Shown here piece by piece: positions 20,931-50,218 of a stretch of 64,000 nucleotides of DNA. Under the pieces are notes generated by a model, which ran no database searches, was not told the DNA's origin, and saw only the letters and a list, made by a program, of their open reading frames with translations. The translations under genes and the position numbers were made by a program. Every line of letters starts with the position of its first letter. The first letter of the stretch is position 1. Source of the stretch: Croceicoccus pelagius (GTDB lineage: Bacteria; Pseudomonadota; Alphaproteobacteria; Sphingomonadales; Sphingomonadaceae); contig NZ_LYWY01000006.1 of assembly GCF_001661915.1 (NCBI RefSeq), positions 1 to 64,000 of the forward strand, read 5' to 3'.

Positions 20931-21164
20931 TCATGAAATGCAGATCGCGTCCTCCAGCGGCACGCTATCGACCAGCAGGCCCAGTTCATCCTCGATCAAA
21001 AGCAGCTGCGACAAGCGCAGGCGACCTTTGAGAATATCCTTGGCGGCAAGTTGTCTGGCGACATATTTCGCGGTCAGGTGCGCTGACGGGAGGTCGGGGC
21101 AATCCATCACGCAATCGCGCTTGTTTGGCGCGTTGTCCTCCAGTCGGAAACGGTACTCGGGCAT
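20931..21164 (-). CDS. Small DUF6894-like protein
   Basis: 77 aa from the ATG at 21164, which has GGAG 7 nt upstream; a longer frame from 21260 has no clear ribosome site. The start MPEYRFRLED and the following acidic-to-helical pattern resemble the short DUF6894 proteins that are common in alphaproteobacteria, usually annotated as hypothetical. No signal peptide or membrane segment. Function unknown. Confidence 0.6.
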   Translation of the reverse strand: MPEYRFRLEDNAPNKRDCVMDCPDLPSAHLTAKYVARQLAAKDILKGRLRLSQLLLIEDELGLLVDSVPLEDAICIS

Positions 21165-21502
21165 TGCAACTCCATCCGTAATTCCGCGATCGGGACGACC
21201 GGACTTTTGGCAGAATTGGTGCAAACCGGCAATGAGACTATCCTGACCGCAATATGACATTTGCGCTGCGGTTTCCCTTTTGGTGGACGACGTCGAAATT
21301 TTCTCCCGACCTCGGGAACAGACCTGCTGCTATTGTTTTACACCGTGGAAGACGGCGCTGCCTCCCTGGCTCCCAGACGTCAAAGAACGCACCGTCAAGG
21401 ACTCCCTTGTCATATTTGCTTTCGCCTCACGCCTGCTCTTGCGGCAACGTTTTGCGAATCGTTTGACCTTCCGACAAAGCTTTGCGAATTGGAGCCCGCC
21501 TC

Positions 21503-21540
21503 GCGGGTGTAGCTCAATGGTAGAGCAGCAGCTTCCCAAG
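21503..21540 (+). pseudogene. Orphan 5' half of tRNA-Gly(CCC): left attachment copy
   Basis: These 38 bp are identical to positions 1-38 of the intact tRNA-Gly gene at 23292, ending in the anticodon loop (CTTCCCAAG). The sequence then diverges completely. Together with the intact copy it brackets a 1.8-kb islet as a direct repeat. The 340 bp before it (21165-21502) hold no convincing gene; they are probably the ancestral upstream region of the tRNA. Confidence 0.85.
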
Positions 21541-21581
21541 ATTAGACTATCATTGAAAATAAACGATAAATTCCCGAATAG

Positions 21582-21621
21582 CCGTCCAACATTGACCACT
21601 TAGATCGATAATGTTGGACGG
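21582..21621. repeat. Left-end inverted pair of CCGTCCAACA sites
   Basis: CCGTCCAACAT (21582-21592) and its exact complement ATGTTGGACGG (21611-21621) form an inverted repeat with 18 nt between, starting 41 nt inside the left attachment repeat. The same 10-mer occurs twice near the right end. The layout resembles recombinase or excisionase arm sites. No U-run follows, so it is not an obvious terminator for the gene ending at 21643. Confidence 0.6.
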
Positions 21622-21642
21622 ATCGGTTTGATGGTTTGGCGT

Positions 21643-22443
21643 TTATCCAATGCCGAGAATTGCTGAGAAGGCACCGAGCGCATGGAGCAGACCTGGAGTC
21701 GCTACCCCTCCCGCAGCCCCGCCTACCGCACCCTCAATAATCGTACGAAGCGATTTACCGGCCTCCTGCAGGATTGTTGGATTTGGCTCTAGCTTTTGAA
21801 GTTGCGATTTGATGGTTTGGATATCCGGTTCAGCTTCTCTCCGGATTTCTTCGTTGGGGATGGAATTTTCCAGACGGTCAAGAGCGGCCGAAATCTCTTT
21901 TGAAGTCAACGTGACCACCGTCGATTGGGAAGCCTGCCCATTCCCTTGCTGAACTCCACCAATAATCGTGTCTGCATTCACGACGTAAATGGCACGATCT
22001 TCTCGTGACTTGCGGCTTCCTACTCCCAATGCAAATGCTCGGATCTGGACGCCAATGTTAGAACGCACTGTTCCTACCATCTGCTCCAGTGCCTCTCTTT
22101 GACTATCGTTAATCTTCGCACTGCCATGTCGAAATGCATAAGGCGGGATTGCGAGCTCATCGACCACTTGCTGAAGATGGGCGACGGCGATTTCGCGAGC
22201 TTCTGGCATCTGCAAATTTGCGCCTGACCAGTCAGCAGTAATTTCGATTATTTCGGCCACATGAGATCGGAGTACTTCCTCCAAATTTTGCACTCCACTC
22301 AGTATTGCCGCTCCGCTGTTGCTGAGACCTCTCTTGCCCATTGCAGCCAAGTTTTTTTCGCGTGCTTGCGCGGCGCTGACACTCAGCTCTTTGAAGCGAT
22401 GATTGAGAAAATCTTTGAAATCTTGAGGCGATGCGTCACTCAT
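21643..22443 (-). CDS. Unknown islet protein with helical body and hydrophobic Gly/Ala C-terminus
   Basis: 266 aa, not confidently assigned to a family. Residues 1-130 are mostly charged helices (DFLNHRFKELSVSA, LEEVLRSHVAEII). A short beta-rich stretch at 151-180 (YVVNADTIIGGVQQGNGQ) resembles the 'QTG/QQGN' parallel-beta motif seen in several accessory proteins. Another amphipathic helical region follows (182-232), then a C-terminal 34 residues rich in Gly, Ala and Leu that could insert in a membrane. It lies 19 nt downstream of the XRE regulator on the same strand. A role in phage defence, toxicity or element maintenance is possible but unproven. Confidence 0.75.
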   Translation of the reverse strand: MSDASPQDFKDFLNHRFKELSVSAAQAREKNLAAMGKRGLSNSGAAILSGVQNLEEVLRSHVAEIIEITADWSGANLQMPEAREIAVAHLQQVVDELAIPPYAFRHGSAKINDSQREALEQMVGTVRSNIGVQIRAFALGVGSRKSREDRAIYVVNADTIIGGVQQGNGQASQSTVVTLTSKEISAALDRLENSIPNEEIRREAEPDIQTIKSQLQKLEPNPTILQEAGKSLRTIIEGAVGGAAGGVATPGLLHALGAFSAILGIG

Positions 22444-22462
22444 CTGTGAAATCCAAAATCGT

Positions 22463-22819
22463 TTAGGACGTCATTCGATCATGGTCTAAGTTTTTCACAT
22501 CACCGCGGTGAGCAAGCAAACTTTTAAGTATCACAATCACCAATTTTTGGTCAGAATCGTTCAGTTGATTAAGCATCGAGAGGACCGTCCTCTGTATCTC
22601 ATTCGAGACATATGGATTATCTAACTCAGATAGAAAATCGACTGGATGTACCTCAAAAATCCTCGCAAATGTGCGCATGTAGTCAAGCGACAACGGCCGC
22701 GTGTTGTTCTCAATCTGGCTGATCGCAGGCTGCGAGATGCCTGCTGCAGCAGAGAGGTCGCTCTGAGAGAGCTTCGCCCTTTTTCGAATTTCTCGTAGAC
22801 GATTGTCCGCTTTGTTCAT
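22463..22819 (-). CDS. XRE-family helix-turn-helix regulator
   Basis: 118 aa. An HTH_3 domain occupies about residues 6-62 (LREIRKRAKLSQSDLSAAAG, then SQPAISQIENNTRPL), typical of Cro/CI/SinR-like repressors. The C-terminal half is a short helical region with no known ligand domain. It is the first gene of a two-gene unit with the 266-aa protein. An imperfect inverted repeat at about 22865-22907 upstream (TCACTCGTAAA ... TTTACGCGAAGTGA) is a plausible operator for autoregulation. Composition matches the AT-rich islet. Confidence 0.88.
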   Translation of the reverse strand: MNKADNRLREIRKRAKLSQSDLSAAAGISQPAISQIENNTRPLSLDYMRTFARIFEVHPVDFLSELDNPYVSNEIQRTVLSMLNQLNDSDQKLVIVILKSLLAHRGDVKNLDHDRMTS

Positions 22820-23004
22820 GATTGCGACCTTCCGCTTTTCACGGAGACCGCAGCAGGATCTAATTCACTCGTAAACTTCGGCCTATGCGATTTACGCGAA
22901 GTGATCTGAGATGACTGCCGAATCACCGTTTCGCGATCGTCATAAGCTTTTGAGGCTTACGATGGCTGCAAAAATTGCATTTTTTAGCAAAGGCTTGCGG
23001 CGAT

Positions 23005-23014
23005 CCGTCCAACA
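23005..23014 (+). repeat. CCGTCCAACA site, inner right
   Basis: Exact third copy of the islet 10-mer, 278 nt before the right attachment repeat. A related GTTGGACG lies at 23097-23104. The surrounding 22820-23291 stretch holds no convincing gene; it contains the XRE promoter region and these sites. Confidence 0.55.
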
Positions 23015-23222
23015 AACCTATCCAATCAGAGGTCTTTTCGATCAGCCAGAGACTTATGACGAGCCTGATAACGCATTAGTTTCAGAACGTTAGGCGGTTG
23101 GACGCTTCGGTCAGAAAAGAAATATAATTAATTTTCAGCAACTTATTCGAAAAAGAGCTGACGATCTAGACATGCCAAGTGCCTGAATTTAAAGGTTTGC
23201 GATCAAATCTTGGCCAAAATAT

Positions 23223-23232
23223 CCGTCCAACA
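23223..23232 (+). repeat. CCGTCCAACA site, outer right
   Basis: Exact fourth copy of the islet 10-mer, 60 nt before the intact tRNA-Gly. A degenerate inverted copy (GGTTGGATCG) lies at 23254-23263. A small hairpin, GTCATT (23271-23276) with AATGAC (23284-23289), lies just before the tRNA. Confidence 0.55.
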
Positions 23233-23291
23233 CGGTTTTTTTGAGGTCCGGAGGTTGGATCGCAAATAAAGTCATTATTCTTCAATGACTT

Positions 23292-23365
23292 GCGGGTGTA
23301 GCTCAATGGTAGAGCAGCAGCTTCCCAAGCTGACGACGGGGGTTCGATTCCCCTCACCCGCTCCA
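23292..23365 (+). tRNA. tRNA-Gly (anticodon CCC)
   Basis: 74 nt including an encoded CCA. Acceptor GCGGGTG pairs with CACCCGC, the anticodon loop is TTCCCAA (CCC at 34-36) and the T-loop is GGTTCGATTCC. It is the intact copy at the right end of the islet; its first 38 nt are the duplicated segment, so its upstream promoter region is islet-derived. Confidence 0.97.
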
Positions 23366-49312: not shown

Positions 49313-50218
49313 CTAGTCGTCCTTCGCGGGCGGGGCAAGTGGGATAGGCGCACCTCTGCCCAGAGGATGCCGCGCGTTCACCAGTTCGACGAGCCGCGCC
49401 GAATCGACATGGGTGTAGATCTGTGTGGTGGCGATATCGGCATGACCGAGCAGGGTCTGGAGAACGCGCAAGTCCGCCCCGCCCTCCAGCAGATGGGTCG
49501 CAAAGGCATGGCGCAGGACGTGCGGGCTGACCGATTCGGGGGCAAGCCCTGCCCTGCCCGCCAGTTCGCGGAGCATCTGGAAGAGCCGGATGCGGCTGAT
49601 ATGCTTGCCGCGCGAGGGGAAGACATAGCGCCCGCCCTTTGGTCGCACCTCAAGCCAGCGCGACATCGCGGCGCGGGCGCGGCTCGACATCGGGACCATA
49701 CGCTGCTGTCCGCCTTTGCCGACGATCGTCAGCAGCGGCGCATCGCGCGGGACGGTGTCCATCGTGAGCGAAACCAGTTCCGTCGCGCGCAGGCCCGAGC
49801 CGTAGAGCATTTCGAGCAGGGCCAGCATACGGATCGCATGGGGTTGACCGGTCGCCGCCTCTTCCTCTGCCAGCGTCAGCATAGCCAACACCTGCTCCTT
49901 GCTGAGGAGGCGTGGCAACGGGCGGCGGATGCGAGGGCGCGGCAAGGCGTCGGACGGATCGTCGTCGCGATAGCCTTCATCGATCAGGAAGCCGAAATAC
50001 TGACGAATGGCGGAACAACGCCGCGCAAGGCTGGACGGCGCGAGCTCCGCCCACGCTTTGCCCAACCCCGACAGGTCAGACGGCTGCGCATCGGCGAGAA
50101 TCGGCACTTCCTGCTCTGCCGCCTCCAGGTCGCGGCGATAGGCGGCAAGAGTGTTCGCCGCCGCCCCGCGTTCGGCGGCCAGCATTTGCAGAAAATCGTC
50201 TATGCCCGGCGTTTTCAT
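49313..50218 (-). CDS. xerD: Tyrosine recombinase XerD
   Basis: 301 aa. An N-terminal core-binding domain (about 1-95) is followed by the catalytic domain with the Arg in [12 protein letters not shown], the His-x-x-Arg in [15 protein letters not shown], a His in [11 protein letters not shown] and the Tyr in QIYTHVD. It resolves chromosome dimers at dif together with XerC, which is not in the window. It lies between the large unknown exported protein and accA, all on the minus strand. It is a housekeeping recombinase and is not part of the tRNA-Gly islet. Confidence 0.93.

Follow-up and report, generated by a model that had tools for sequence, protein, structure and literature searches.

The tRNA-Gly(CCC) gene of Croceicoccus pelagius harbours a 1,789-bp islet (21503–23291 of the window, the 64,000-nucleotide stretch of contig NZ_LYWY01000006.1 analysed here) that encodes no recombinase of its own and whose ends resemble the attachment sites of a family of phages and prophages, defined below by its integrase and referred to as A1. 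We tentatively interpret the islet as a non-autonomous, phage-satellite-like element that was inserted by an A1-type integrase acting in trans and that carries a repressor-plus-exclusion operon.

The boundaries of the islet are sharp. Two direct repeats, 21503–21540 and 23292–23329, are identical at 38 of 38 positions, and extending the pair from 21500 and 23289 gives 41 bp at 98% identity. The left copy, the attL core, is an orphan 5′ half of tRNA-Gly(CCC) on the forward strand that aligns with the start of the gene in a genome of the same genus (G002). The right copy, the attR core, is the first 38 bp of the single intact tRNA-Gly(CCC) gene that both ARAGORN and Rfam place at this locus (23292–23365, forward strand), and repeat identity stops at the anticodon loop. 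Between the cores lies an interior of 1,751 bp (21541–23291) with a GC content of 0.473, compared to 0.623 across the window. The initial annotation had described exact 38-bp repeats around an AT-richer segment and a duplicated 5′ half reaching to the anticodon loop, and both descriptions hold. Its prediction that joining the ends would recreate the tRNA gene, to be sought as an empty site in related genomes, is borne out by G002: the tRNA gene is uninterrupted there, the matches to query positions 1–603 and 2352–2623 overlap by one 41-bp copy, and the islet flanks joined through a single repeat copy align across the junction. The interior has no match among the matches listed for 13 same-genus relatives; both flanks could be aligned in only one of them, G002, so the empty site is known from one genome. 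As a separate observation, the T stem (23337–23353) differs between the host and G002 (locus L003) by a paired change, GGGGG/CCCCT versus GAGGG/CCCTT.

The insertion rearranges what lies upstream of the gene: the upstream flank of the original gene now runs into the orphan half, and islet DNA precedes the intact tRNA-Gly(CCC). The suggestion that the intact gene thereby gained an element-derived promoter is compatible with this geometry, but a promoter scan of the 2.3-kb stretch returned 2 sites against 2.1 expected by chance.

Two clear genes occupy the islet, both leftward and 19 bp apart. The first encodes a 118-aa XRE regulator (22463–22819, reverse strand; HTH_3, E-value 6.8e-14) related to a regulator of A1 prophages, and the second a 266-aa protein (21643–22443, reverse strand). 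A possible third ORF of 60 aa (22911–23093, forward strand, with a shorter start possible at 22965) has no Pfam match, and its coding status is doubtful. Of the four ORFs scanned against Pfam, two gave significant matches, the XRE regulator and, outside the islet, an ORF with a DUF6894 match; the other two gave none. The DUF6894 ORF (26.9 bits, cut-off 24.1) is small and lies just left of the islet at 20931–21260 on the reverse strand. For the 266-aa protein, PADLOC reports a weak match to PDC-M14B (E-value 3.8e-5, residues 165–242), and the three best PDC-M14 models all match weakly (E-values 3.8e-5 to 8.2e-5) over residues 102–243 or less. The PDC-M14 candidate as defined by PADLOC includes a partner gene, and none of the PDC-M14 models matches the XRE protein. 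A search of open-licence papers returned no paper on PDC-M14 among its top matches. Across 396 genomes of the order, the host alone gave a match to the 266-aa protein; no relative was found in plasmids, phages or viral contigs, nor at any of the 75 pattern matches in genome_contigs. An AlphaFold2 model built from the single sequence (mean pLDDT 49.8) was too poor for fold comparison. Neither clear gene matches a primase, another replication gene or an AlpA-type activator at E ≤ 1, and the islet interior DNA matches nothing in the phages and plasmids searched.

The ends of the islet carry a second kind of signal. Of the five copies of the motif CCGTCCAACA in the 3.3-Mb genome, four are inside the islet, where a Markov model predicts 0.001 per interior; the pattern read backwards occurs 18 times genome-wide. 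Counting left offsets from GTGTAG of the core and right offsets from the right core, the copies place TCCAACA at +78 (21582–21591, forward), inverted at +105 (21612–21621, reverse), at −288 (23005–23014, forward) and at −70 (23223–23232, forward). We regard the copies at the islet ends as putative arm-type sites, which an A1-type integrase would be expected to bind.

Phage sequences with the same arrangement point to that integrase. Searching viral contigs with the left- or right-end pattern of the islet gave nine loci, of which seven lacked a tRNA half and were taken as chance. The remaining two (L097 and L098) are phage contigs with identical sequence in this region; they carry virion genes and an attP consisting of a tRNA-Gly(TCC) 5′ half with TCCAACA sites on both sides, and they are also the only viral contigs matched by the strict left-end pattern, which among 397 genomes was found in the host genome alone. 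Near the attP of L097 is a 440-aa integrase that matches a PHROG integrase family (5.8e-14) and no Pfam family at 1e-3. Relatives of this protein, seven of which were aligned, constitute the A1 family. The family is common in Sphingomonadales: of its 31 genome_contigs loci, 16 belong to named members of the order (Sphingomonas, Novosphingobium, Erythrobacter and Aurantiacibacter). An intact tRNA-Gly is found no more than 600 bp away at five of the 31, and some further loci adjoin other tRNAs. At E ≤ 1e-10 an A1 integrase is encoded by 16 of 397 family genomes, the host not among them.

Four A1 prophages duplicate the same tRNA-Gly 5′ half as the islet (G628, 40.8 kb; G630, 40.9 kb; G464, 42.3 kb; G561, 41.6 kb). 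At their left ends the +105 site is found at +104 to +106 with zero or one mismatch, and the +78 site with one or two. The least biased comparison is with MT835534.1 (L106), since this faecal phage scaffold was retrieved by integrase homology, independently of its arm sites. It has an intact attP, with a tRNA-Gly(TCC) 5′ half, arm-type sites on both sides and an adjoining A1 integrase; its −79, −56, +78 and +105 sites are exact and its −70 site has one mismatch. The left pair of the islet, +78(+)/+105(−), is exactly that of MT835534.1, and a further locus (L099) has +80/+106. The islet therefore has the tRNA-Gly 5′-half core and the left arms near +78(+)/+105(−) by which we recognise A1-type attachment. 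Its right end is less complete. Right arms of A1 elements comprise −79(−), −70(+) and −56(−) and vary among elements, being fewer or more diverged than in the others at L174, L114 and L177; in the islet −70 is exact, and −79 and −56 are absent. Also missing from the left core of the islet is a CT after CCCAAG, which the other 5′-type A1 elements have, with the exception of G561. Members of the A1 family occur with either tRNA half duplicated: in a same-genus genome (G005), the same tRNA gene is occupied by an A1 prophage of roughly 41 kb (C21:80051–121258) that duplicates the 3′ half, with the full gene at 80051 and the 3′ half at 121211, and that shows no islet-type arm offsets.

The CCGTCCAACA copies could instead be operators of the islet XRE protein, in which case insertion would have been the work of another recombinase or of homologous recombination. 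The copy at 23005 is away from both ends and upstream of the XRE gene, and inverted repeats are frequent targets of XRE proteins. The 180 bp upstream of the XRE start (22819), however, contain none of the four sites, and the left pair equals phage attP sites in both offset and polarity; we consider this explanation very improbable.

Contrary to what the initial annotation had implied, duplication of the 5′ half is not peculiar to the islet; apart from the four A1 prophages, a second class of elements uses it, and the layout has been published. Elements that integrate into a tRNA 5′ half have been described before, and tRNA 5′ regions recombine considerably less often than 3′ regions, according to the relevant part of PMC6563490, which cites Zhao and Williams (2002). 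Like the tRNA-5′-region elements treated there, the islet has its recombination site in the 5′ part of the gene, but it has no integrase. A pattern search for the 5′ half matched 260 of 397 family genomes and, among the matches listed, revealed same-strand pairs 12–27 kb apart in several of them. We compared nine such stretches (L063–L074, in G038, G113, G187, G175, G153, G426, G477, G508 and G159). Seven encode an integrase of another type, P0001 (355–393 aa), which in six of the seven directly precedes the restored tRNA, and in seven of the nine stretches one core or both have TGTAAA nearby; the stretches in G113 and G508 encode neither a P0001 nor an A1 integrase. Further same-half pairs are spaced 9.6 kb (G150), 7.3 kb (G287), and 5.3 and 13.2 kb (G164).

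Several long ORFs in the nine stretches resemble, by eye, restriction-modification genes. In G113 (C30:162848–182400, L065–L066), 19.5 kb separate two 5′ halves, and the DNA just before the first resembles the right end of other islands, a hint of tandem accretion. In G164, three same-strand 5′ halves (C1, 336673, 342003 and 355250; L158, L168 and L171) apparently delimit two tandem elements, and the sequences upstream of the first two copies are similar.

That a P0001-type integrase placed the islet is suggested by the shared core and the shared half, but TGTAAA is absent near the islet cores, and the ten PF00589 proteins of the host include no P0001-type integrase, the closest being 28% identical over 142 aa. 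Because its flanking motifs are wrong and the genome search detected no P0001-type integrase, the islet was rejected as a member of this family, and we hold such an origin to be extremely unlikely. The statement that the islet encodes no recombinase is corroborated: Pfam identifies none among the islet ORFs, and seven A1 integrases searched against the islet leave no trace (best E-value 0.60). The proposed search of the host for an integrase with the same tRNA target came back empty, as neither the A1 profile nor its first member detects an A1 integrase in the genome and none of the ten PF00589 proteins is near the P0001 type. One PF00589 match is in the window itself (E-value 3.3e-42; 49400–49906, reverse strand, in a 325-aa open frame), far from the islet; it is presumably a XerC/XerD-type recombinase of the host.

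The regulator provides a further connection to the A1 phages. Of 50,697 phage records, two match the islet XRE protein at E ≤ 1e-5, MT835930.1 and MT835534.1, and the A1 integrase matches the same two. An XRE relative (E ≤ 1e-3) is present at 14 of the 31 A1 loci, its best match always on the integrase strand, whereas four other HTH proteins match none of the 31. In the family, seven of 373 genomes besides the host encode a relative at E ≤ 1e-8, and in five of the seven (G005, G441, G444, G519 and G561) it is 5.1–7.1 kb from an A1 integrase; in G437, the sixth neighbourhood compared, there is no A1 integrase within about 10 kb, which speaks against a strict tie of the XRE protein to A1 phages. 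The seventh relative is in G471. Viral contigs contain two relatives, L188 and L189. L189 and the G005 prophage have their integrase-end sequence in common, and L188 is labelled an A1 phage in our tree though its 13 kb contain no A1 integrase. At four A1 loci (L107, L110, L119 and L125) a small divergent HTH ORF faces the gene for the XRE relative, an organisation that fits a repressor/Cro arrangement. In the tree the islet protein forms a long branch (1.92) beside L188, with support of 94/84; given this branch and the diverged C-terminal half, it is a distant relative and not a recent copy. Most of the best relatives of the islet XRE protein belong to A1 phages.

Taken as a group, the A1 phages and prophages (among them IMGVR_UViG_3300037420_001055, MT835534.1 and the prophages of Sphingomonas sp. 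Leaf32 and S. jatrophae) are like the islet in their tRNA-Gly 5′-half core, left arm offsets and related XRE regulator. They differ in being 41–42 kb long where both ends were located, in encoding an integrase and, where examined, virion genes, and in a GC content of 0.55–0.70; the islet has two genes, no integrase or virion genes, and a GC content of 0.47.

How such a small element came to have phage ends can be explained in two ways, and under both the islet is non-autonomous and uses a phage attachment site. The first is the satellite-like origin that we tentatively favour. The second, a close rival that we judge only somewhat less probable, is a relic: a complete A1-type prophage with its own integrase would have been deleted down to its ends and the repressor-plus-exclusion operon, and kept for immunity in the manner of a cis-mobilizable element (CIME). 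Such a relic would not be an independent traveller, yet a related phage could excise it. Decay to attL and attR without an integrase is the accepted origin of CIMEs in the account given in PMC5704250. Also in favour of a relic, the islet is a singleton in all collections searched, and only one of the three A1 right-arm positions is present. An argument from gene orientation was tried against the relic and discarded: at the 14 A1 loci the best XRE match shares the strand of the integrase, which is opposite to the islet orientation in 5′-type elements whose integrase sits at the tRNA end. In G561, however, both regulator and integrase point toward the 5′-half end, as the islet XRE gene does, so a simple deletion could yield the islet order.

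What speaks against the relic is partly content and partly composition. No phage structural or integrase remnants were found in the islet, and relatives of the 266-aa protein are absent from the A1 loci searched. All parts of the islet are AT-rich (GC 0.39–0.51), whereas tested A1 elements have 0.57–0.69 in their end regions; within the islet, the XRE gene, the gaps and the two ends are at 0.39–0.49, compared to 0.50–0.69 in 15 related XRE genes. That the low GC extends to every part, including the ends, argues against a recent deletion product of an A1 phage, although AT-biased decay could be another source of it. This composition, together with the compactness of the islet and the lack of phage remnants, favours the satellite-like reading. 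Against it stand the single occurrence of the islet, the failure to find a helper in the host genome, the incomplete right arms, the CT missing from the left core, the divergence of the XRE protein, the G437 relative with no A1 integrase nearby and the 3′-type duplication in G005.

The initial annotation had proposed a minimal satellite that uses a recombinase in trans. The ends of the islet are of the type found with known phage integrases, which makes recombination in trans plausible; no helper, however, was found in the host genome, and a search for the same islet elsewhere, covering order genomes, plasmids, phages, viral contigs and genome_contigs, found no second copy. Since the islet was found only once, the satellite reading is put forward as a hypothesis, in which movement is something we infer. 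In its strongest form, the islet would be a live, transmissible satellite of a new, minimal type, with two genes and no integrase, that borrows the integrase of a helper through its own version of the helper attachment site and gives the host a repressor/exclusion operon against that same phage family; we regard this form as rather unlikely.

Under the satellite-like reading, a temperate phage in the same cell would supply the A1-type integrase, which would catalyse exchange between the 38-bp core of a circular islet and the tRNA gene, within the stretch reaching to the anticodon loop. The 5′ half of the old gene would then lie at the far end, and the gene would be rebuilt with the copy brought by the islet. 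After insertion, the islet would express its leftward gene pair as a single operon, and the repressor-like XRE protein and the 266-aa protein would probably act together as a repressor-plus-exclusion pair against related phages. A phage of the same attachment specificity could then excise the islet again in trans.

Among known systems, several resemble the islet in part. CIMEs, as described in the portion of PMC5704250 that concerns them, keep attL and attR and have no integration or transfer genes, and both hold for the islet; they derive, however, from ICEs and IMEs moved by conjugation, while the ends and the regulator of the islet are of phage type. Phage satellites (PICI, P4-like and PICMI) are likewise small integrated elements tied to a phage family and carrying a candidate defence gene, but in the part of PMC10803314 that describes them they have their own integrase and excision factors, and the islet has neither. 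With regard to packaging by a helper phage, neither islet DNA nor a relative of the 266-aa protein was found in the phage and viral collections. MITEs and CALINs also keep their recombination sites and receive the enzyme in trans (as presented in part of PMC11389934), but they depend on other enzymes and have no tRNA target.

RS1, the satellite of CTXphi, is likewise a small element with a phage repressor and without its own integrase. RS1 relies on host Xer recombination and a filamentous helper; the islet instead has a tRNA core and arm-type sites, and its XRE protein scores 43.2 bits against RstR, below the cut-off of 80. Among the top matches in open-licence papers, judged by title and the start of the abstract, none described an integrase-less tRNA satellite of tailed phages, which is weak evidence for novelty.

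If the islet is mobile, it would be a very small, integrated phage satellite without its own integrase, contrary to the description of satellites in the relevant part of PMC10803314, and an attachment site alone would suffice for phage-driven mobility, comparable to what is seen in MITEs and integrase-less integron arrays. Surveys that begin with a tRNA-adjacent integrase would overlook such elements, so that further islets of 1–3 kb could be hidden, and the arm offsets (+78/+105 on the left; −79/−70/−56 on the right) offer a direct handle for finding them. Even if the islet is a relic, it would indicate that a prophage can be reduced to its attachment sites and an immunity operon.
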